Source: a virus. From it: DNA of 30,184 bases. The notes beneath the pieces are model-generated. The model worked only from the letters and a program-made list of their open reading frames with translations, was not told the DNA's origin and ran no database searches. The stretch lies in the IMG/VR virus record IMGVR_UViG_3300048549_001258, positions 1 through 30,184 of that record; one strand, 5' to 3'. Shown one piece after another: positions 4,835 to 18,912 of this stretch; positions within the stretch are counted from its first letter, which is position 1; the number at the start of each line of letters is the position of its first letter. A program made the position numbers and the translations under genes.

Positions 4835-4912
4835 ATGATAGGTCAAGAATTATTATTGTGGAGTATAGTGGCTTTTGTCATTTGCCTTTATTTAAATCTA
4901 TTTGTAAGGTAA
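4835..4912 (+). CDS. Hydrophobic peptide MIGQ..., 25 aa
   Basis: The predicted peptide starts MIGQELLLWSIVAFVICLYL and ends NLFVR. It is a single transmembrane helix with a short polar N-terminus and a basic C-terminal residue. It is a paralogue of the 3793 peptide, in the same position relative to the decamer module. The shared MI-x-QE start and equal length (25 codons each) are the main support. Confidence 0.5.
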   Translation: MIGQELLLWSIVAFVICLYLNLFVR

Positions 4913-4940
4913 TTTTTTTAAAAAATTTTAAAAAAAAATA

Positions 4941-4968
4941 TTGACTATAAGGTTTTTCTATGCATTGT
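4941..4968 (+). promoter_or_regulatory. Early promoter, leaderless type
   Basis: TTGACT (4941-4946), 16-bp spacer, CATTGT (4963-4968), behind T7A6-like tracts. The ATG at 4977 lies 36 nt from the first base of the -35 box. Confidence 0.7.
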
Positions 4969-4976
4969 TATTGACC

Positions 4977-5210
4977 ATGACAAACATAACTATAACGCAT
5001 AAACAATCATATGGAAACAATCACTTATATATTTCGGGTGATAAAGCAGACAATTTAAAAGCTTTACTAGGAAAGAAGACTGTTAATTTATCTGATTTAA
5101 AAAACCTTCTTAAGCTTGGGGTGCAATTTAACATTGACGCAAGCACGCAAACATGCTTAAACATTACTTCCGCAATTAATCACGGTGCAAGCGAAATTAT
5201 TTTTCCTTAG
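4977..5210 (+). CDS. Small protein, unknown
   Basis: The 77-aa protein starts MTNITITHKQSYGNNHLYIS, with DKADNLKALLGKKTVNLSDLKNLLKLG forming two likely helices and a C-terminal strand. An upstream in-frame start would lie in the -35 box, so 4977 is chosen; it also sits at the expected +1. No family is recognised. It is a monocistronic unit; the next -35 box is 3 nt after its stop. Confidence 0.7.
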   Translation: MTNITITHKQSYGNNHLYISGDKADNLKALLGKKTVNLSDLKNLLKLGVQFNIDASTQTCLNITSAINHGASEIIFP

Positions 5211-5213
5211 CAC

Positions 5214-5241
5214 TTGACAAACCATAAAAAACATACAATAT
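5214..5241 (+). promoter_or_regulatory. Early promoter, leaderless type
   Basis: TTGACA (5214-5219), 16-bp spacer, CAATAT (5236-5241). The ATG at 5249 lies 35 nt from the first base of the -35 box. Confidence 0.7.
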
Positions 5242-5248
5242 AAAAACC

Positions 5249-5935
5249 ATGAAACTACTAACCACAAACACAAAACTCGAAAAAGATAATTCATATCATG
5301 CGTTAGGCATTCAGCTTGCGCCTTTTACCCTTGGCGGCTATGGCAATGTCTGCACAAGCGCAAGTGAAGGATGCAGTGAAGCTTGCTTATTTTCAGCTGG
5401 TCGCGGTGCAATGCCTAATGTAAAGGATGCACGAATCGCCCGCACAAAAAAGTTTTTTACCGATAAGACTGGTTTTATGACTCAGTTATTTAACGAAATT
5501 GTAAAAGCCGAAAAAAGCGCAAAGCGTAAAGGTTTGAAGCTTGCCTTGCGTTTAAACGTTTTATCGGATTTGCCTTGGGAAAAGATTAAGCATGAAGGCA
5601 AGACAGTTTTTGAGACTTTCCCGCAAATCACTTTTTACGATTATACAAAGCACTTCAAACGTGCAATGTCATTCGCTAAAGGTGAAATGCCTAGCAACTA
5701 CCACTTGACCTTCTCGCGTAGCGAGTCAAACGAAAACTTGGTAAAACTTATTTTAGAGCTTGGCGGAAACGTCGCTTGCGTTTTCCGTAATGAGCTGCCT
5801 AAGACTTGGCAAGGTAAGAAAGTAATTGACGGTGATAAGAGCGACTTGCGATTTTTAGATGATTCCAATGTCGTTGTTGGACTAGCACAAAAAGGTATGG
5901 CAAAAAAAGATGAAACTGGTTTCGTAATAGGCTAA
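5249..5935 (+). CDS. Gp88-family phage protein
   Basis: The 228-aa protein has the N-terminal cysteine cluster NVC-TSASEG-C-SEA-C (Cys35, Cys42, Cys46) followed by LFSAGRGAMPNVKDARIARTKKFF. It then has ALRLNVLSDLPWE and a later FSRSESNE segment. This order (C-x6-C-x3-C, AGRG, ARxART, RLNxxSDxxWE) matches the gene-product-88 domain first named in mycobacteriophages. The biochemical function is unknown. The cysteine spacing could hold a metal or Fe-S cluster, which is inference. The length fits the family. It is predicted leaderless from the promoter at 5214 and is the largest gene of the first 8 kb. A 14-aa hydrophobic ORF and the tmRNA-like RNA follow. Confidence 0.75.
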   Translation: MKLLTTNTKLEKDNSYHALGIQLAPFTLGGYGNVCTSASEGCSEACLFSAGRGAMPNVKDARIARTKKFFTDKTGFMTQLFNEIVKAEKSAKRKGLKLALRLNVLSDLPWEKIKHEGKTVFETFPQITFYDYTKHFKRAMSFAKGEMPSNYHLTFSRSESNENLVKLILELGGNVACVFRNELPKTWQGKKVIDGDKSDLRFLDDSNVVVGLAQKGMAKKDETGFVIG

Positions 5936-5958
5936 GGCTAGTACAAATAAACTCAAAT

Positions 5959-6003
5959 ATGATATTTATACTAATTCTAGTACTACTAGTAATAATAAAC
6001 TAA
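5959..6003 (+). CDS. Hydrophobic micropeptide, 14 aa
   Basis: The predicted peptide is MIFILILVLLVIIN, entirely hydrophobic, starting right after two decamers (5940-5959). It lies between the Gp88 gene and the tmRNA-like RNA. Similar in length and composition to the ORFs at 3654 and 11848. Real translation is uncertain. Confidence 0.35.
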   Translation: MIFILILVLLVIIN

Positions 6004-6009
6004 ATTAAC

Positions 6010-6076
6010 GGGGGTGTAAGGGTTTCGATTTAAATTATTTAATTTGAAGACGGTGGTTCAACTCCACCCACCTCCA
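6010..6076 (+). ncRNA. Miniature tmRNA-like RNA (tRNA-like domain only)
   Basis: The acceptor is GGGGGTG (6010-6016)/CACCTCC (6069-6075), seven pairs with a G-U wobble at 3:70, then A73 (6076). The 5' side continues with GG-TTTCGAT, matching the conserved GG..UUCGA of tmRNA. The 3' side has GAC followed by T-arm GGTGG-TTCAACT-CCACC, where TTCAACT is the tmRNA T-loop. Between them an 8-bp stem TTTAAATT (6029-6036)/AATTTGAA (6041-6048) with loop ATTT replaces pseudoknots, tag frame and mRNA domain. G3-U70 and A73 are the alanine identity elements. No CCA is encoded; T8 (6077-6084) follows and may terminate it. No promoter of the early type is seen; readthrough from 5249 is possible. Folding and parallels are seen; alanylation or SmpB binding is inference. 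Confidence 0.7.
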
Positions 6077-6103
6077 TTTTTTTTAAAAAACTTCTAAAAG
6101 ATA

Positions 6104-6161
6104 TTGACATTGATAAAAATCTAACTTAGTCTTTTAAGCATAAGATTAATTCTGATCTTAT
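6104..6161 (+). promoter_or_regulatory. Promoter with 5'-terminal hairpin
   Basis: TTGACA (6104-6109), 16-17-bp spacer, TTAGTC or TAGTCT. At the expected +1 begins ATAAGAT (6140-6146), pairing with ATCTTAT (6155-6161). The mRNA should therefore start with a 7-bp stem-loop. The ATG follows at 6178. Confidence 0.65.
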
Positions 6162-6177
6162 AAAACCAAAAAACCAT

Positions 6178-6399
6178 ATGAAATTAATCGACCAAGTAAA
6201 TCAAATTAAAAAAGATGCTCGACTTGCACTGATCAAAAAGCTTGCAGGTAAAGATCTTAAAGTGACATACCGCCATGCAATGAAAAGCATCGATGATAAT
6301 GCCCCAAGCATCGCGACAGAAAACGCCCCAAAAGATTTAGCCTTCGAGAGAGAGCAAGATGCTTTTACAACAGATTTAAATGAAAGGGTTTTTGGTTAA
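6178..6399 (+). CDS. Small protein, unknown
   Basis: The 73-aa protein has a basic helical N-terminus (MKLIDQVNQIKKDARLALIKK) followed by a polar, probably disordered middle (DDNAPSIATENAPKD) and an acidic C-terminus. No family is recognised. It is a single-gene unit between the 5'-hairpin promoter at 6104 and the terminator at 6413. Confidence 0.7.
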   Translation: MKLIDQVNQIKKDARLALIKKLAGKDLKVTYRHAMKSIDDNAPSIATENAPKDLAFEREQDAFTTDLNERVFG

Positions 6400-6412
6400 T
6401 GGTTATGGTTAT

Positions 6413-6449
6413 GGGAAGCGGTGATTTTAGATTGCACTGCTTCCCTTTT
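6413..6449 (+). terminator. Intrinsic terminator
   Basis: GGGAAGCGGTG (6413-6423) pairs with CACTGCTTCCC (6435-6445) with one mismatch, followed by TTTTCC. Confidence 0.75.
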
Positions 6450-6469
6450 CCTATATAACTTTTATTACT

Positions 6470-6718
6470 ATGAAAACACATAATAAACTACCACAAGACA
6501 TAAAAGAATTAGTTTTAGATTTAATTCTAAAGAAAATTGATTTTGGATGGCAACTGTTAAACTATAATATTAGCAGTAATAGAGTTGACCTAGATTTTGG
6601 TCACTCAAATAGATCTGATATAAGTAATAGCTTTTGCTTTAAACTAGATGATTTAGAAGTGTCAAGGTCAAATCTAAATACTTGGATTAGTCAAGTCAGA
6701 GCGCCATACATACCTTAA
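6470..6718 (+). CDS. Small protein, unknown
   Basis: The 82-aa protein starts MKTHNKLPQDIKELVLDLIL, continues KKIDFGWQLLNYNI, and ends with a KLDDLEVSRSNLNTWISQV helix. No promoter of the TTGAC type is obvious directly upstream, and there is no strong ribosome-binding site. It may be read past the terminator at 6413. It pairs with the 6724 ORF 5 nt downstream. No family is recognised. Confidence 0.6.
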   Translation: MKTHNKLPQDIKELVLDLILKKIDFGWQLLNYNISSNRVDLDFGHSNRSDISNSFCFKLDDLEVSRSNLNTWISQVRAPYIP

Positions 6719-6723
6719 ATAGA

Positions 6724-6897
6724 ATGGAATATAAATATTCTATCCAGGAAATAAGAGATTGGCTCGCAAATATAAGTAATATTTGTAGCGAACAAAAATG
6801 GAAAGATCTTTTGAATAGTTCAGATTATTTATTAAGAGAAGAGTTAAAAGGTTGTATTTCTTTTGAGCAGGCGAAAAAAGTCTTAATTTTGTGTTGA
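6724..6897 (+). CDS. Small protein, unknown
   Basis: The 57-aa ORF encodes MEYKYSIQEIRDWLANISNI followed by CSEQKWKDLLNSSDYLLREELKG pieces and ends KKVLILC. Amphipathic helices, balanced composition and tight fit between neighbours support a real gene. Its TGA stop (6895-6897) lies inside the -35 box of the next promoter, as also seen at 4278 and 7713. No family is recognised. Confidence 0.6.
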   Translation: MEYKYSIQEIRDWLANISNICSEQKWKDLLNSSDYLLREELKGCISFEQAKKVLILC

Positions 6898-6922
6898 CAC
6901 GTCTATTCGTGCGTTGCACTGT
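6894..6922 (+). promoter_or_regulatory. Early promoter overlapping upstream stop
   Basis: TTGACA (6894-6899), 17-bp spacer, CACTGT (6917-6922). The ATG at 6929 lies 35 nt from the first base of the -35 box (leaderless). Confidence 0.65.
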
Positions 6923-6928
6923 ATAGGC

Positions 6929-7105
6929 ATGAAAAAAGCCACAGACCTAATACCAGAAGCAGTTGACTTCTTAACTCAGATGAATTATAACCACAATCGC
7001 AAGCTTGGGGTTTCAGCCAAAAAGTTTGGTTTATTGTATGGCGACAAAAAAGTTGCCATTATGGAAAAAAACTTCAAAAGGCTGTTGACAATCAAAAAAC
7101 GATAA
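6929..7105 (+). CDS. Basic small protein, unknown
   Basis: The 58-aa protein starts MKKATDLIPEAVDFLTQMNY and is increasingly basic towards the C-terminus (EKNFKRLLTIKKR), suggesting nucleic-acid or membrane contact. An upstream in-frame TTG is rejected because it lies before the expected +1. The next promoter's -35 box (7085) sits inside its 3' coding end, encoding part of LLT. No family is recognised. Confidence 0.65.
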   Translation: MKKATDLIPEAVDFLTQMNYNHNRKLGVSAKKFGLLYGDKKVAIMEKNFKRLLTIKKR

Positions 7106-7112
7106 TCATTCT
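7085..7112 (+). promoter_or_regulatory. Early promoter inside upstream gene
   Basis: TTGACA (7085-7090), 16-bp spacer, CATTCT (7107-7112). The ATG at 7120 lies 35 nt from the first base of the -35 box (leaderless). The -35 box lies wholly within the 6929 coding sequence. Confidence 0.75.
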
Positions 7113-7119
7113 TTAAACC

Positions 7120-7278
7120 ATGAAAACCATAAAAGAAATCAAAGTATCCTCAATTCTAACCGACGAAGTCTTACGTCAACAAAAGGATTTAATTGCACAA
7201 GGCTTTAAGCACGTAAACAATGTCAAGGCTGGTCGCTTTTCAGATCGCTACACAATGATTTTTGTTAAACAAAACTAA
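7120..7278 (+). CDS. Small basic protein, unknown
   Basis: The 52-aa ORF encodes MKTIKEIKVSSILTDEVLRQ, then a segment around KDLIAQGFKHVNNVKAGRFS, ending in a strand YTMIFVKQN. It is predicted leaderless and has a perfect promoter, which is strong support for so short an ORF. Strand-helix-strand order is suggested. No family is recognised. The GAAA-tetraloop hairpin at 7286 follows. Confidence 0.65.
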   Translation: MKTIKEIKVSSILTDEVLRQQKDLIAQGFKHVNNVKAGRFSDRYTMIFVKQN

Positions 7279-8360: not shown

Positions 8361-9164
8361 ATGAAAAACGTAAATGCAAATGAAGCCCTCGCCCTCGACA
8401 TTACCGAAACTCCACTTAACGTAGAGTTTAAAGAGGTTCGTATAAATGGCGAGTATAGCGCGACAGTAGGCAATGATCGCTCGATTCCGACATTCGACAA
8501 ACTGCTAGCCCCGTTTGTGGATCTCTCGAATGCAATGCAATGCGAGTTTAACCCTAGCATTAAGCTTATGCGCTCATCTCACGGCACAGACGGAACTATT
8601 TATTCCATCTCTATGCCATACAAAACAATCGATTTGGGCGAGCGCGAAACGGAATGTCGCATCGTGCGTCACGGATCGCTTAACTCATCTTGTTCTGATC
8701 GCTTTGGTTTGCAAATGCTAGTTCAAGTTTGCTCTAACGGCATGATGGGCTGGAAGTCTGAGGGCAATGCCGTAACACGCTTTACAGCTAACTGGCAGGG
8801 CATCTCACAAGGGCGTATCGATCTTGCGCTTGGATCGTTTGACTCTATGCAAGCTCACTATGTTGAACTGGCTAATGATCTCAAAGCGATTCGTTTGACT
8901 AGCGAGGGCGTCACTGATCGCTTAAATCGTATTGTTAAGGGCGAGTCAAAACGTGCCGAAAACATTCGTGAGGAAATTCGCGAGCTTTTTGTTTCGGGCA
9001 AGGGCAATCGTGGGCAAAGCTCATGGGATTTGTTCAACGCTGTTACCGAGTATGAGAATCATCACAAGGTGTATCGTAACACAAACGGTGTTTCCAGCGC
9101 TGAGAATCGCGCTAAAGGCGTTTTAGCCCTCGATACGGATAAGTTAGCAAGCTTGGTAGCGTAA
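8361..9164 (+). CDS. DUF932 family protein, paralogue 1
   Basis: The 267-aa protein contains RFGLQMLVQVCSNGMMGWK, a later KGESKRAENIREEIREL helix and the C-terminal GKGNRGQSSWDLFNAVTEYE block followed by NHH. This is the signature order of DUF932 (phage/plasmid-like TIGR03299) proteins, whose function is unknown. It is about 70% identical to the protein at 9656, yet the DNA has diverged strongly: here CGC, TCG and GCG-type codons are frequent. Its own promoter, 5' hairpin and terminator make it a single-gene unit. The strong translation-like codon choice and solid regulatory parts suggest high expression. Confidence 0.75.
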   Translation: MKNVNANEALALDITETPLNVEFKEVRINGEYSATVGNDRSIPTFDKLLAPFVDLSNAMQCEFNPSIKLMRSSHGTDGTIYSISMPYKTIDLGERETECRIVRHGSLNSSCSDRFGLQMLVQVCSNGMMGWKSEGNAVTRFTANWQGISQGRIDLALGSFDSMQAHYVELANDLKAIRLTSEGVTDRLNRIVKGESKRAENIREEIRELFVSGKGNRGQSSWDLFNAVTEYENHHKVYRNTNGVSSAENRAKGVLALDTDKLASLVA

Positions 9165-9655: not shown

Positions 9656-10459
9656 ATGAAAAAAGTAAATGCAGAAGAAGCACTCGCACTCAACATCACT
9701 GAACACGCTTTGAACGTAGAGTTCAAGGAAGTTAGAATCAATGGAGAGTATTCGGCTACGGTCGGCACTGACCGTGCTGTTCCAACATTCACTGACCTGC
9801 TTGACCCTTTCATCAAGCTTTCCAATGGCATGCAAACTGAGTTTGACCCTACGGTCAGTCTCATGCGGTCAAGTCATGGAGCGGAAGGGACTTTGTACAA
9901 CATTTCAATGCCATTCGGCACGGTTGACCTTGGCGGTCGATCGACTGAAATGAGAATTAGTCGATTCGGTTCACTCAATTCATCATGCTCCGATAAATTC
10001 GGCCTTCAAATGCTAGTTCAGATTTGTAGCAATGGCATGATGGGATGGAAGTCTCAAGGGACTGCAGTGACGCGTTTCACGGCCAACTGGCAAGGCCTTT
10101 CAACTGAACGTATTCAGTTTGCTTTGGAAGGCTTTGAAGGCATGAAGCATCACTATGTGACAATGGCCGAATCACTTAAGTCAATTCGTTTGACTGCTCC
10201 CGAAGTGGATGAACGCTTGAACCGAATTGTTAAGGGTGAAAGCAAACGTTCAGAGAATATTCGAGAGGAAATTAGAGAATTGTTTATCAGTGGTAAAGGC
10301 AATCGCGGTGAAAACTCATGGGACTTGTTCAATGCGGTCACTGAGTATGAGAATCACTATAAGACCTATAGAAACACAAATGGTGTTTCAAGTGATGAGA
10401 ATCGCGCTAAAGGTGTCTTATCAATTGACTCTGATAAGTTGGCCGAGCTAGTAGCATAA
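9656..10459 (+). CDS. DUF932 family protein, paralogue 2
   Basis: The 267-aa protein is equal in length to paralogue 1 and colinear without gaps. It conserves KFGLQMLVQICSNGMMGWK, KGESKRSENIREEIREL, GKGNRGENSWDLFNAVTEYE and the final NRAKGVLSIDSDKL. Function of the family is unknown. Codon choice differs visibly from paralogue 1 (more TCA, GGA and ACT). This points to an old duplication or separate acquisition, not a recent tandem copy. It shares the upstream palindrome module but has a long structured leader where paralogue 1 has a short 5' hairpin, so the two are probably expressed at different times or levels. Confidence 0.75.
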   Translation: MKKVNAEEALALNITEHALNVEFKEVRINGEYSATVGTDRAVPTFTDLLDPFIKLSNGMQTEFDPTVSLMRSSHGAEGTLYNISMPFGTVDLGGRSTEMRISRFGSLNSSCSDKFGLQMLVQICSNGMMGWKSQGTAVTRFTANWQGLSTERIQFALEGFEGMKHHYVTMAESLKSIRLTAPEVDERLNRIVKGESKRSENIREEIRELFISGKGNRGENSWDLFNAVTEYENHYKTYRNTNGVSSDENRAKGVLSIDSDKLAELVA

Positions 10460-14308: not shown

Positions 14309-14383
14309 TGGTAGCTCCACCAGGAATCGAACCTGGAACGCAAGATTAGAAATCATGTGTTATATCCGTTTAACTATAGAGCC
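14309..14383 (-). tRNA. tRNA-Arg (UCU)
   Basis: Acceptor GGCTCTA/TGGAGCT (with G-U wobbles), D-stem GTTA/TAAC, anticodon loop TTTCTAA, T-arm CCAGG-TTCGATT-CCTGG, A73, encoded CCA. One U-U mismatch in the anticodon stem. Reads AGA, a preferred codon in this AT-rich phage. Confidence 0.85.
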
Positions 14384-14491
14384 GAAATTATTTTCACCTG
14401 AGAGCCACTATTATCTCTCACATTCAGGGTTTTTCTAGGTTTCAATGCATCCCCATTAGGTGGTAAGCAATACGCAAAGATACTGATAGAG

Positions 14492-14573
14492 TTTCCATTG
14501 TTTCGGACTCGAACCGTTCGTCGCAAACCAACCGCTAAATCGGTTTACTTTCTCTTTGTAATGCGGTGAAAAA
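14492..14573 (-). ncRNA. Degenerate tRNA-like gene
   Basis: The T-arm core ACGG-TTCGAGT-CCG is canonical, and an AACCG/CGGTT hairpin with TTTAG lies at the anticodon position. The acceptor strands do not pair well, no CCA is present, and the anticodon loop is not 7 nt. First element after the minus promoter at 14624. It is either a pseudo-tRNA or a derived small RNA. The spacer 14384-14491 holds only short hairpins. Confidence 0.35.
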
Positions 14574-14575
14574 AT

Positions 14576-14624
14576 TGTTAAAGAACTATGCAATGTACTA
14601 TGTACTATTTTTGATACTTGTCAA
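14576..14624 (-). promoter_or_regulatory. Minus-strand promoter plus boxA
   Basis: Read on minus: TTGACA (14624-14619), 16-bp spacer, CATAGT (14602-14597). The transcript then starts ATAGTTCTTTAACA, with boxA GTTCTTTAACA at 14586-14576. Drives the tRNA-like gene, tRNA-Arg and probably the minus-strand protein genes. Confidence 0.7.
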
Positions 14625-14631
14625 CAAAAAA

Positions 14632-14641
14632 TAGTGTAATT
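14632..14641 (+). promoter_or_regulatory. Late-promoter-like motif TAGTGTAATT
   Basis: Matches TAGTGTAATA at 17571 and 19458 in 9 of 10 positions and lies 7 nt before the ATG at 14648. Confidence 0.5.
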
Positions 14642-14647
14642 CTTTGT

Positions 14648-14989
14648 ATGGTCGATTTAAATGAAAATACAAATGTCAATATACCTTTAAGGAACTTACT
14701 GGGATTAATATTTGCAGTAGCTGTTTCTGTTACTGGATACGTGAATCTTACCTCGCGAATTACTCAATTAGAACATGGTAGACAAATTACTAACGTCGAG
14801 GTATCGATGAATAGTGAATTCAGAGTCAAATGGCCTCGCGGTGAGTTAGGGGCTTTGCCAGCTGATGCTAATCAGGATCTTAGATTAAACTATATCGAGA
14901 AACGCTTAGAAATGGTTGATGGGCTTTCCCGCGAATTAGAAATTGAAGTTCATAAGGCCAAAGTTGAATCTGAAGCTGTAGATAATTAA
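14648..14989 (+). CDS. Small membrane protein, possibly late
   Basis: The 113-aa protein starts MVDLNENTNVNIPLRNLLGL and has one transmembrane helix (GLIFAVAVSVTGYVNL). A likely extracytoplasmic domain follows (RVKWPRGELGALPADANQDL) and a C-terminal acidic coiled coil. The ATG at 14648 is chosen because the late-type motif at 14632 would place +1 there; a TTG at 14618 is rejected. Together with the next ORF it forms a two-gene plus-strand island inside the minus-strand tRNA array. Small late membrane proteins often act in lysis or virion assembly; this is inference. Confidence 0.65.
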   Translation: MVDLNENTNVNIPLRNLLGLIFAVAVSVTGYVNLTSRITQLEHGRQITNVEVSMNSEFRVKWPRGELGALPADANQDLRLNYIEKRLEMVDGLSRELEIEVHKAKVESEAVDN

Positions 14990-15003
14990 AGATAGTGGAT
15001 CCT

Positions 15004-15162
15004 ATGAATGAGTTATTAAATATCCTGATATCTTTATGGCCTGTCTTTGTTGGGTTTATAGGCTTGATTGTTGTATTATCTAAGATGCATTACAATATAG
15101 AAAACTTAACAGAGAAGGTAAAAGTTCTTTTCGATTTTCATAACGAAAGAAAAGATAGATAA
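15004..15162 (+). CDS. Small membrane protein
   Basis: The 52-aa ORF starts MNELLNILISLWPVFVGFIG, a transmembrane segment, followed by an amphipathic, charged helix (IENLTEKVKVLFDFHNERKD). It lies 14 nt after the previous gene and probably shares its mRNA. Size and topology resemble small phage holin-associated proteins; no family is identified. It ends 7 nt before tRNA-Met on the opposite strand. Confidence 0.6.
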   Translation: MNELLNILISLWPVFVGFIGLIVVLSKMHYNIENLTEKVKVLFDFHNERKDR

Positions 15163-15169
15163 TTAAAAA

Positions 15170-15244
15170 TGGTGGACCCTGAGAATTACGATATCTCGAC
15201 CTAACCATTATGAGTGGTTTGCTCTTCCTCTGAGCTAAGGGTCC
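15170..15244 (-). tRNA. tRNA-Met (CAU)
   Basis: Acceptor GGACCCT/AGGGTCC, D-arm GCTC/AGC, anticodon stem AACCA/TGGTT with loop CTCATAA, A73 and encoded CCA. The T-arm is irregular: loop region ATCGTAA lacks the usual TTC-purine-A, although the outer stem pairs GAGA/TCTC hold. Confidence 0.85.
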
Positions 15245-15941
15245 TAAAAGTGTGAGGGAGCCGACCGCTACGCAGTCCTTATCCTCATTATCAACCCCCG
15301 CCGTCGCAGAGGAATTACAAGCTCAATCTAAACACCAATATAAGATTTGATCAGATTCTTATGTTTTTTTCGCCAAATTATGCATATACTCTATGATATA
15401 GGAGTCTTTCGACTCTCACGGCACATATGTCCGAATTTTGTCATAGAGTGCAGAGGCATGGCAGGTCTACTTTGATAATAGTTAACCCAATAGATGACGT
15501 AGAGAAGTTACCTTGTATGATAAATGATCGATCTAACAGCATGCCGCTCAATCAACGCCTATTCCACAGGCCTCATATCCTAGTACGTTCTACACTACTT
15601 TTTTAGTTTCCCCCCATTGGAATGGTGGATCATTACCCAATACTCCTCAAAGCATTGGAACTATTAAATTGATCAGCAGTGAGCAATAGCCTACATCACT
15701 TGCACTGCTGGATATGTTAACGTGTTTGCTCCTCACGATACCGATTTGACGACCTATGACAGAGCGGTATGTTCTCTGCTTTTTCTCCTGTAGTGTGCAT
15801 CATCAAGGCTACTTAGATGAGAGGCATTAGGGGTCAAAATGAAAGAAAGGCCCCAGCAGGGAGTGATCAACTCTGCTGCTCCTTGTTGATTCAAGGAGTA
15901 AATCATCTCTGCTCGTATGCAGTAGAGGATGTAGGACAAGG
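15245..15941 (-). other. 697-nt non-coding, hairpin-rich segment in tRNA array
   Basis: No credible ORF or canonical tRNA. Clear stems include CAGCAGTG...CACTGCTG (perfect 8 bp, in 15670-15710), GAGTC-TTT-CGACTC near 15410, CCTTG...CAAGG near 15880 and CATC-TCT-GC/GC-AGTAGA-GGATG near 15905. This density of stems suggests structured RNA transcribed with the tRNAs. Confidence 0.5.
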
Positions 15942-16018
15942 TGGCAGGTTCGGCAGGATTTGAACCTGCGAATGACTGGATCAAAACCAGTTGTGTTAGG
16001 CCACTTCACCACGAACCA
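15942..16018 (-). tRNA. tRNA-Gln (UUG)
   Basis: Acceptor TGGTTCG/CGAACCT (weak 1-72 pair, as is common in tRNA-Gln), anticodon stem ACTGG/CCAGT with loop TTTTGAT, T-arm GCAGG-TTCAAAT-CCTGC, G73, encoded CCA. Confidence 0.9.
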
Positions 16019-16024
16019 ATAAAA

Positions 16025-16100
16025 TGGTACACCCTCTGGGACTTGAACCCAGAACCAATTGATTAAAAGTCAACTGCTCTACCGATTGAGCTAAAGGTGC
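16025..16100 (-). tRNA. tRNA-Lys (UUU)
   Basis: Acceptor GCACCTT/AGGGTGT, D-arm GCTC/GAGC, anticodon GTTGA-CTTTTAA-TCAAT, T-arm CTGGG-TTCAAGT-CCCAG, A73, encoded CCA. Confidence 0.92.
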
Positions 16101-16362
16101 TTAATACACAGGATAGGTCGTTACTCCTATTACGGTCTTTGTGGAACTAGGCTTACGATTACCAATCGATCACCATGCTTCTATGCGCTTCGCGTTTTGC
16201 AGTTACGGTCACGAAAATGCCATAGAATTAACCGAGTCGATATTCCGCCTTCCTCGGACGCTGGCCCACGCAGTGTTTCTACTTTCAACACCGCCTGTGT
16301 AAAATGTACCCAGCCTTTATGATCATTCAATGAAGAAGAGGATCACTGGGTGTGTTAAAAAG
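16101..16362 (-). other. Non-coding hairpin-rich spacer
   Basis: No ORF or tRNA. It contains GCGCTTCGCG and a nested stem near the downstream end: ACCCAG/CTGGGT enclosing TGATC/GATCA (about 16310-16352). Confidence 0.45.
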
Positions 16363-16440
16363 CTGTTCAGGCTGGATTCGAACCAGCATTGCCGAAGCAC
16401 GGATTAACAGTCCGCTGTATTACCTATCTACCACTGAACA
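16363..16440 (-). tRNA. tRNA-Asn (GUU)
   Basis: Acceptor TGTTCAG/CTGAACA, anticodon GCGGA-CTGTTAA-TCCGT, T-arm GCTGG-TTCGAAT-CCAGC, G73. CCA is not encoded (CTT follows), so host CCA addition is needed. Confidence 0.88.
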
Positions 16441-16632
16441 ATAAAAAGTTTTGATTCACCCGTTAAACGGTTGAATTTTTACAGACAATAATTACTTGCC
16501 TCCTGTTGTAAGCGCTTACAGAGCAGGGAATCTCGCAGTATACACGGGTCATTCATCATCGTTTAGGTTGCGATCCTATGATGCCGTGACTTCTTTCATT
16601 CTCGCTAATAGAACTTCTGCATGAATCAAATT
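16441..16632 (-). other. Non-coding spacer with LacI-type palindrome
   Basis: Contains TGTAAGCGCTTACA (16507-16520), a perfect 14-bp palindrome extended by CCTG...CAGG. It also has TTCA-CCG-TTAAA-CGG-TTGAA near 16455. It could be an RNA hairpin or an operator for a LacI/GalR-type regulator. No gene seen. Confidence 0.5.
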
Positions 16633-16722
16633 TGGCGGAGAAAGTAGGATTCGAACCTACGGAAGCGATTAAACTTCGACTCTTTAGCAAAGAGCTACCT
16701 TAAACCTCTCAGTCATATCTCC
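16633..16722 (-). tRNA. tRNA-Ser (GCU)
   Basis: Class II tRNA with long variable arm. Acceptor GGAGATA/TTTCTCC, anticodon loop TTGCTAA, T-arm GTAGG-TTCGAAT-CCTAC, G73, encoded CCA. Confidence 0.9.
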
Positions 16723-16727
16723 TTAAA

Positions 16728-16815
16728 TGGCAGAGAGAGTGGGATTTGAACCCACGGATGCTTTCACATCAACAGTTTTCAAGACTGCCGCCTTAAGCCG
16801 CTCAGCCATCTCTCT
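16728..16815 (-). tRNA. tRNA-Ser (UGA)
   Basis: Class II tRNA. Acceptor AGAGAGA/TCTCTCT, anticodon loop CTTGAAA, T-arm GTGGG-TTCAAAT-CCCAC, G73, encoded CCA. Confidence 0.92.
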
Positions 16816-16820
16816 AAAAA

Positions 16821-16896
16821 TGGAGGTCACACTCGGATTTGAACCGAGAAAGGCTGAGTACAAATCAGCTGTTTTGCCAATTAAAACTATGCGACC
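16821..16896 (-). tRNA. tRNA-Thr (UGU)
   Basis: Acceptor GGTCGCA/TGTGACC, anticodon GCTGA-TTTGTAC-TCAGC, T-arm CTCGG-TTCAAAT-CCGAG, T73, encoded CCA. Confidence 0.9.
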
Positions 16897-16900
16897 TAAG

Positions 16901-16975
16901 TACCCCTATGCGGATTCGAACCGCAGTCGCTTGGATGAAAACCAAGTGTCCTAGACCTGGCTAGACGATAGGGGC
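16901..16975 (-). tRNA. tRNA-Glu (UUC)
   Basis: Acceptor GCCCCTA/TAGGGGT, D-arm GTCTAG type, anticodon CTTGG-TTTTCAT-CCAAG, T-arm TGCGG-TTCGAAT-CCGCA, A73. CCA is not encoded. Confidence 0.9.
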
Positions 16976-16981
16976 TTAAAG

Positions 16982-17055
<74 letters not shown>

Positions 17056-17070
17056 ATGGAATAACCGCAA

Positions 17071-17143
17071 TATTGCTACAGGATTCGAACCTGTGTTTCT
17101 GACATACTCGTCAGTGTCCTAGACCTGGCTAGACGAAGCAAGC
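17071..17143 (-). tRNA. tRNA-Glu-derived copy with altered anticodon arm
   Basis: The D-arm region (17115-17136) is identical over 22 nt to that of tRNA-Glu (16947-16968), and the T-arm ACAGG-TTCGAAT-CCTGT is intact. The anticodon arm is CTGAC/GTCAG closing only 6 nt (GAGTAT), with no U33. The acceptor GCTTGCT/AGCAATA has two mismatches. No CCA. Normal decoding is unlikely; it may be a decaying or repurposed duplicate. The spacer 17144-17240 holds CAATCA-GGCG-TGATTG inside TTCCAG/CTGGAA. Confidence 0.6.
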
Positions 17144-17240
17144 TATCACTTAAAACCTTATTGTTCCAGCAATCAGGCGTGATTGGCGTTATACGTTCAA
17201 AGTTCTCTACTGGAATAGATCGCTTTTACTTGTAATAAAA

Positions 17241-17312
17241 TGGTTGCAGGGGCAGGAATTGAACCTGCTCACGAAGCTTATGAGACTCCGTTGGCTACCT
17301 AACCTCCCTACA
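17241..17312 (-). tRNA. tRNA-Met (CAU), second copy
   Basis: Acceptor TGTAGGG/CCCTGCA, short D-arm, anticodon stem GGAGT/GCTTC with loop CTCATAA, T-arm GCAGG-TTCAATT-CCTGC, A73, encoded CCA. With T1 and CAU it could be initiator-like or an Ile-CAU (lysidine) species; not decidable here. First tRNA of the array. Confidence 0.85.
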
Positions 17313-17586: not shown

Positions 17587-18912
17587 ATGGCTACCGAATT
17601 CAATACAGTAAGCAGTATGTTTGAATTATCCAAACAGGCAGGGAATATACCTCACGTTCTGGATAAGGCCACAGGTAAATACAGGCCGCTAACTACTGAC
17701 GATTTTAGCCTTAACAGTGATGCAAATGCGACTTCTCTAGACTCCTTTGGCCGACTACGAGTATCCAATCCAGTAACTTTATTTGATTCTACTCATAGGT
17801 ATCGTGATAACGAATTATGGTCAACCAGCACAAATGGAACTGCTTCGGCTACATTTAATGCAGATCAGGGGCTAATTGATATGACTGTAGACAATTCTTC
17901 TGGATCTCAAGTAATTAGAGAGACTACAAAAGTGTTTCCTTACCAGCCAGGAAAGAGTCTTATGATTATGTCAACCTTTGCAATGGATAGTGTTAAAACT
18001 GGCCTTAGACAAAGGGTGGGGTATTTTGGGACACAGAACGGAGTCTATTTAGAGAAGGACAATGCTGAGGTTTCATTCGTAGAAAGAACTTCAGTATCTG
18101 GATCTCTTGTAGAGAATAAAATTTTACAAGAAGATTGGAACGTAGATAAGATGGATGGCACTGGAAGGTCTGGCGTGACTTTGGATTTGTCTAAAGCTCA
18201 GATACTTTGGTCCGACTTCGAATGGCTTGGGGTTGGAACTGTGAGAATTGGCTTCATAGTAGATGGAAAATATATCCACTGCCATAGCTTTCATCATGCT
18301 AATCAGATAGCCACGACTTACATAACTACGGCTACATTGCCACTAAGATACGAAATTACGAATACTGCTGCAACTAGTGGCAGTAGCAATCTTAAACAAA
18401 TATGCTCTAGCGTTATATCCGAAGGAGGTTATTCGCTTCAAGGAGAACAGAGATCTGCCGCCGTTCCAATTACTGGATCAAAAAGCCTTGGGGCGGCAGG
18501 AACTAATACTCCTGTAGTTTCAGTTAGATTAAAGACTGGGTATATAGATGCTGCGGCAATATTATCAGCAGTCAGCCTGATTGGTAAAACTAATAACGCT
18601 TTTTACGAATGGCAGCTAATATCTAAAGGCGTTTCATTGGGGGGCAGCTTTACTTCGGATACTACTTCTAGCGTAGAATATAAATTAGATGGTACTGGTA
18701 TTACTGGAGGACATATTTTGGCGGCTGGCTATTTTGCATCTACCACGCAAAGTCAACAGTCAGTTTCAATAGACAGAGATTCTCTATTAAGATTTCAATT
18801 AGAAAGAAACAGTTTGGAGAACTATCCTTATGAAATGACACTAGCTTGTGCATCCGATACGTCTTCCGCAGACGTTTTCGGTTCAATGGACTGGGAAGAA
18901 ATTTCAAGATAA
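17587..18912 (+). CDS. Virion structural protein
   Basis: The 441-aa protein begins with a short helical region and then DSFGRLRVSNPVTLFDSTHR. The xFGRLRVSxPxTLFDS phrase recurs in structural proteins of marine and other tailed phages annotated as virion or tail/head-associated proteins. The rest is beta-rich and Ser/Thr/Gly-rich (for example QGLIDMTVDNSSGSQVIRET), typical of capsid-decorating or tail-fibre-associated domains. No enzymatic motif. It opens the late block; the late-type motif lies 7 nt before the ATG, so the mRNA may be leaderless. Its stop overlaps the next ATG (TAATG). The exact virion location cannot be told. Confidence 0.65.
   Translation: MATEFNTVSSMFELSKQAGNIPHVLDKATGKYRPLTTDDFSLNSDANATSLDSFGRLRVSNPVTLFDSTHRYRDNELWSTSTNGTASATFNADQGLIDMTVDNSSGSQVIRETTKVFPYQPGKSLMIMSTFAMDSVKTGLRQRVGYFGTQNGVYLEKDNAEVSFVERTSVSGSLVENKILQEDWNVDKMDGTGRSGVTLDLSKAQILWSDFEWLGVGTVRIGFIVDGKYIHCHSFHHANQIATTYITTATLPLRYEITNTAATSGSSNLKQICSSVISEGGYSLQGEQRSAAVPITGSKSLGAAGTNTPVVSVRLKTGYIDAAAILSAVSLIGKTNNAFYEWQLISKGVSLGGSFTSDTTSSVEYKLDGTGITGGHILAAGYFASTTQSQQSVSIDRDSLLRFQLERNSLENYPYEMTLACASDTSSADVFGSMDWEEISR

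Follow-up and report, generated by a model that had tools for sequence, protein, structure and literature searches.

Bacterial transfer-messenger RNA (tmRNA; Rfam family RF00023) is roughly 230-400 nt long and comprises a tRNA-like domain (TLD), a tag reading frame and pseudoknots. Forms without the coding region have been described. The Mycobacterium phage DS6A encodes a 'TLD only' tmRNA (PMC4131195, PMC11915505, citing Mao et al. 2009). In E. coli, a DS6A-like TLD molecule is a strong inhibitor of tmRNA with or without the capacity to be alanylated (PMC4131195, PMC11915505), perhaps via titration of SmpB (PMC4131195). Of the 97,179 genes in the 2025 tmRNA database, nine have the standard order but no coding region; these include DS6A and two plastid genes (PMC11915505). 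A coding region is also absent from described tmRNAs of mitochondria and of Mallomonadaceae plastids, the latter of ~65 bp (PMC11915505). The jakobid and oomycete mitochondrial tmRNA (RF02544; Jacob et al. 2004 and Hafez et al. 2013, cited in PMC11915505) has lost the mRNA-like region but kept the TLD, with SmpB supplied from elsewhere, and is usually permuted and two-piece. Complete phage-borne ssrA genes are also known, including the two-piece tmRNA of Melnitz (PMC9004378) and the 394 bp tmRNA of Lacusarx (PMC5648845).

In the present study, a 30,184-nt viral sequence (the window; IMG/VR record IMGVR_UViG_3300048549_001258, positions 1 to 30,184) was analysed, and positions 6010-6076 on its plus strand were identified as a TLD-only tmRNA gene (mini-tmRNA) of a marine tailed phage. 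A reading of the sequence alone had stated that no phage RNA of this form was described, which the DS6A tmRNA contradicts. The TLD-only phage tmRNA is an already known kind; what is new is its breadth, its two architectures and its conserved alanine identity. A search of open-licence papers found no report of such breadth.

Compared by description only, the DS6A RNA shares with the window RNA the TLD-only form, but it is a lone mycobacteriophage case, whereas the window RNA belongs to an unrelated marine phage group and has a short simple hairpin. The Mallomonadaceae plastid tmRNA resembles the window RNA in size, standard order and lack of a tag, but is organelle-encoded rather than viral. 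Unlike the jakobid and oomycete RNAs, the window gene has the standard order and is in one piece. With bacterial tmRNA it shares the TLD sequence, D-loop, T-arm, acceptor, G3-U70, A73 and the start of the P2 helix, but at 67 nt it has neither tag reading frame nor pseudoknots. Melnitz and Lacusarx also carry a phage-borne ssrA, though a complete one; the annotated Lacusarx tmRNA, considered as a possible mini form, was rejected as full length.

Anatomy and classification of the window RNA

The gene consists of the following parts.

6010..6076, plus strand: TLD-only tmRNA gene matching RF00023; mature RNA of ~67 nt, CCA not encoded
6010..6016, plus strand: 5′ strand of the acceptor stem, GGGGGTG, with G3 at 6012; G3-U70, read from the sequence, recurs in 38/38 short and 67/67 long distinct homologues
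6017..6028, plus strand: stemless D-loop with GG..TTCGA, the SmpB-contact region in tmRNA, placed by covariance model alignment
6029..6048, plus strand: P2 hairpin of 8 bp (6029-6036/6041-6048) with the 4-nt loop AUUU, replacing the whole pseudoknot and mRNA module
6049..6051, plus strand: GAC linker 5′ of the T-arm, its A invariant in the alignment
6052..6068, plus strand: T-arm of 5 bp with the loop TTCAACT; all cells paired (100%) in 38 homologues, with two-sided changes at three pairs
6069..6076, plus strand: 3′ strand of the acceptor stem, CACCTCC, and discriminator A73; U70 at 6073, A73 at 6076
6077..6084, plus strand: run of eight T directly 3′ of A73, read from the sequence

The whole-window scan with RF00023 matched 6010-6076(+) with 54.2 bits (E 7.5e-19), above the curated cut-off of 47 bits. 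The alignment spans model positions 1-374 and is not truncated, with ~306 internal positions reduced to 2 nt. A 111-base slice given to cmscan returned only 21 bits with a mis-registered, truncated alignment; short-slice searches are thus misleading at this locus. The sequence and the 38-sequence alignment contain every part of the TLD, that is, the 7-bp acceptor, G3-U70, A73, the stemless D-loop (reading GG-TTTCGA in the window RNA) and the T-arm. The P2 hairpin alone lies between the TLD halves, where no mRNA-like domain (resume codon, tag reading frame, stop) was found, and the pseudoknot ring is missing with the ~306 absent model positions. The anticodon arm and D-stem of tRNAs (RF00005) are lacking at 6010-6076, and ARAGORN and the tRNA covariance model report no tRNA there. 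With its complete TLD the RNA falls into the class of standard-order tmRNAs without a coding region to which DS6A belongs, the category being taken as defined in PMC11915505.

The sequence-only reading thus gave the coordinates and anatomy correctly, and its recognition of a TLD without tag or mRNA module was borne out by the model score and the absent positions. The covariance model check that it proposed gave a match above the cut-off; ARAGORN gives 11 tRNAs in the window and makes no call at this locus.

Single-sequence folding of the window RNA is only moderately strong (-22.7 kcal/mol, z -2.55), and the minimum free energy fold extends P2 into the D-loop. The comparative evidence for the RNA structure, given below, is stronger. 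The GC-rich TLD followed by the eight-T run could, from its sequence, terminate transcription. The terminator scan near the mini-tmRNA was negative, with no consensus terminator scored, and the promoter and terminator scans of the locus were uninformative.

Relatives, covariation and alanine identity

A strict sequence pattern matched 53 viral contigs and gave only two matches in 84,980 species genomes of bacteria and archaea; with one pattern yielding such counts, the form is strongly virus-enriched. The two genome-contig copies (L058 3038-3115 and L057 1846-1923), from a Mycobacterium metagenome-assembled genome and a Lentisphaerae metagenome-assembled genome contig, are possible prophages. 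When the 3′ acceptor side was left open, at least 119 stretches were found, all but two of them mini-tmRNAs among the matches listed. Leaving the D-loop open added more short forms, and these too retain GG..TCGA; tRNA-like sequences from that scan, including tRNA-Ala-like matches, were set aside. After removal of three false matches, ~117 distinct relatives remain, most of them from IMG/VR contigs. The pattern matches L088, L125, L202, L197 and L241 were discarded as false; L241 12858-12941 (-) may nevertheless be a further TLD-like RNA, in which the D-loop is altered and P2 is replaced by a perfect hairpin of great length.

A nucleotide search with 5940-6180 against cultured phages gave chance matches only. 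BLAST with fourteen relatives revealed unannotated copies in Streptomyces phages Shaeky, LuckySocke, GiJojo and BRock, Stenotrophomonas phage Jojan60 and Pontimonas phage phiPsal1. Five of these (all except GiJojo) were analysed, and all five exceed the RF00023 cut-off. Two architectures can be distinguished. The short one, ~56-69 nt with a simple P2 hairpin, occurs in the window and related marine phages. The long one, of 74-81 nt, combines a P2 of 7 bp with an A-rich internal loop and a small capping hairpin, and includes most other relatives, the cultured phages among them. On one relative's contig (L145 5029-5100, +), a RAGATH-24 RNA match of 49.9 bits (cut-off 45.3) lies ~2.4 kb from the mini-tmRNA.

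Homologues with compensatory changes, which the sequence-only reading had suggested looking for, were found, and pairing is kept in them. In the 38 distinct short forms, two-sided compensatory changes occur at all 8 pairs of P2, and in the 67 long forms at all seven. The covariation score of P2 in the short forms is 0.560, against 0.157 in shuffles (0/500), and is at most 0.12 with the partner strand slid. The nearest viral records (L008/L036 and L026) share ~82-83% nucleotide identity with the window over 4896-7123; in these relatives the RNA has hardly changed, in contrast to the divergent intergenic DNA on either side. The comparisons show that selection acts on this RNA in many phages.

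An origin of the locus by decay of a captured ssrA, or as the attP fragment of an ssrA-integrating phage, was considered, since tmRNA genes are common integration sites and ssrA fragments occur in prophages (PMC9004378). An attP fragment, however, would retain the 3′ part only, whereas here both TLD halves stand in standard order, joined by a covarying helix, and the RNA is nearly invariant among relatives differing by ~17% overall. Contradicted by the P2 covariation, this origin was rejected as highly improbable.

The determinants of alanylation, G3-U70 and A73, are present in 92/92 distinct sequences. Among these, 55 distinct sequences were found only when the 3′ acceptor side was unspecified, and U70 is present in all 55; A73 was fixed by the regular expression in this set but left open in the 92-sequence count and its source scan. 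At the neighbouring positions 5-68 and 6-67, by contrast, as many as four types of pair occur within this set. Because these pairs vary while U70 is constant, U70 appears to be held against free drift to C70. The five analysed cultured-phage copies also have G3-U70 and A73, and in two of them the fourth pair is U-A. These patterns point to strong selection on alanine identity.

This bears on the suggestion that the RNA is an uncharged sponge that binds only SmpB, its alanylation being incidental. Such a role would agree with the retention of the SmpB-contact D-loop and with the inhibition of tmRNA by a DS6A-like molecule whether chargeable or not (PMC4131195). A sponge would not, however, account for the constancy of G3-U70 and A73 beside freely varying neighbouring pairs, and we regard it as unlikely. 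An unbroken alanine identity implies that the charged state matters, which a simple sponge fits less well than a competitor for the ribosomal A site or an RNA that rescues without tagging.

Possible action on host trans-translation

On balance, the mini-tmRNA is probably a charged, SmpB-binding inhibitor of host trans-translation. The sequence-only reading had proposed a decoy or inhibitor, and that part of its proposal agrees, by analogy, with the published inhibition of E. coli tmRNA by an equivalent molecule. The RNA would be transcribed and processed like a tRNA, receive CCA from the host enzyme and alanine from the host alanyl-tRNA synthetase, and bind host SmpB and EF-Tu. In a crystal structure, an Ala-charged TLD fragment with SmpB and EF-Tu forms a quaternary complex on a stalled ribosome (PDB 4ABR/4ABS; PMC3968760); because these components suffice to occupy the ribosome, a phage TLD RNA would be expected to compete with host tmRNA both for SmpB and for access to the vacant A site. 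With neither resume codon nor stop codon, the nascent chain would not be tagged. Since tagging is impossible without these codons, the outcome would be a dominant-negative block of trans-translation in infection, when cleaved mRNAs make non-stop ribosomes common.

The SmpB gene is absent from the 47 virus records and 5 cultured-phage records searched, and no full-length tmRNA was found in the 30 records examined, many of the records being fragments. The permuted two-piece tmRNA (RF04321) was also considered and dismissed, having no match in the window record and none over the cut-off in 30 records. As no phage SmpB was found, any SmpB, alanyl-tRNA synthetase or EF-Tu partner must be the host's.

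Several points weigh against the proposed inhibitor. The published inhibition is independent of alanine charging (PMC4131195), and if charging is dispensable, a pure SmpB sponge would leave the never-lost G3-U70 and A73 unexplained. The window copy lacks an encoded CCA, whereas most tRNAs of that phage encode it; CCA is encoded in roughly half of the mini-tmRNA copies. The presence of SmpB and tmRNA in the host of the window phage is an assumption.

The charged state would also be expected if the RNA rescued ribosomes without tagging. In this scenario the complex of alanylated TLD and SmpB would take the stalled peptide by transpeptidation, the ribosome would dissociate or be recycled, and the chain would be released untagged, as supposed for mitochondrial tmRNAs without a tag region; the phage would keep ribosomes working, and truncated proteins would escape ClpXP. 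Universal alanine identity is expected if the charged form does the chemistry, and a mitochondrial tmRNA without a coding region, thought to help with incomplete mRNAs, has been retained together with nuclear SmpB (PMC11915505). Some copies also lie within phage tRNA clusters, among translation-support genes; about one fifth of the long forms have a tRNA gene no more than 300 bp away, in almost every case on the strand of the mini-tmRNA itself. Against this, there is no known route to free the peptidyl-TLD without a resume and a stop codon, and the sole published test of such a molecule reports inhibition (PMC4131195). Tag-less rescue is a possible but doubtful function. A slightly more tentative extension is that a charged RNA for tag-less rescue arose or spread repeatedly among phages, forming a virus-run branch of ribosome rescue that would clear non-stop ribosomes during infection, with retention of alanine identity as its signature.

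Genomic setting and significance

The mini-tmRNA of the window is intergenic, lying between two genes.

5249..5935, plus strand: upstream GP88-family gene (PF17338; Pfam E 4.9e-47)
6178..6399, plus strand: downstream small open reading frame of 73 aa without a family match

Other copies lie in replication modules, or have terminase and portal genes close by. No shared neighbour gene hinting at function was found across most members of either class. Phage tRNAs can counter tRNA-cleaving defence, and a different role involving alanyl-tRNA or SmpB may be imagined, either counter-defence against systems attacking tRNA or tmRNA, or supply of alanylated RNA for a non-ribosomal reaction. The occurrence of mini-tmRNAs in several unrelated gene neighbourhoods is consistent with it, but no linked defence or enzyme gene recurs beside the copies, and such a role seems quite improbable.

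GP88 of the window is 48% identical to a pelagiphage protein, and the virion protein at 17587-18912 shares 52-58% identity with proteins of T4-like cyanophages. The adjacent terminase bears only a distant resemblance to terminases of Bacillus and Clostridioides phages. The largest structural open reading frame has no phage match, and no close cultured relative of the window phage was found. It may represent a mosaic or an undescribed phage group. The cluster of 11 tRNAs at 14309-17312 (-) encodes CCA in 8, the exceptions being Asn, Glu and Pro. Between its tRNA-Asn and tRNA-Ser lies a sub-threshold match to the freshwater-1 RNA (RF02979; 16477-16537, -; 39.6 bits, cut-off 72, E 9e-6). Two mutually similar open reading frames of 267 aa were detected at 8361-9164 and 9656-10459, the first matching DUF932; L008/L036 carry DNA matching both.

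A form counted nine times in standard order in the 2025 database is thus a recurrent, structurally conserved and mostly unannotated phage RNA, present in phages from the sea, from soil and in culture. With G3-U70 and A73 unbroken, an SmpB sponge can be told apart from a charged competitor or rescuer by direct test, and Streptomyces phages Shaeky, BRock and LuckySocke, Pontimonas phage phiPsal1 and Stenotrophomonas phage Jojan60 provide ready test systems. The implication is that interfering with or redirecting ribosome rescue may be a common phage strategy.
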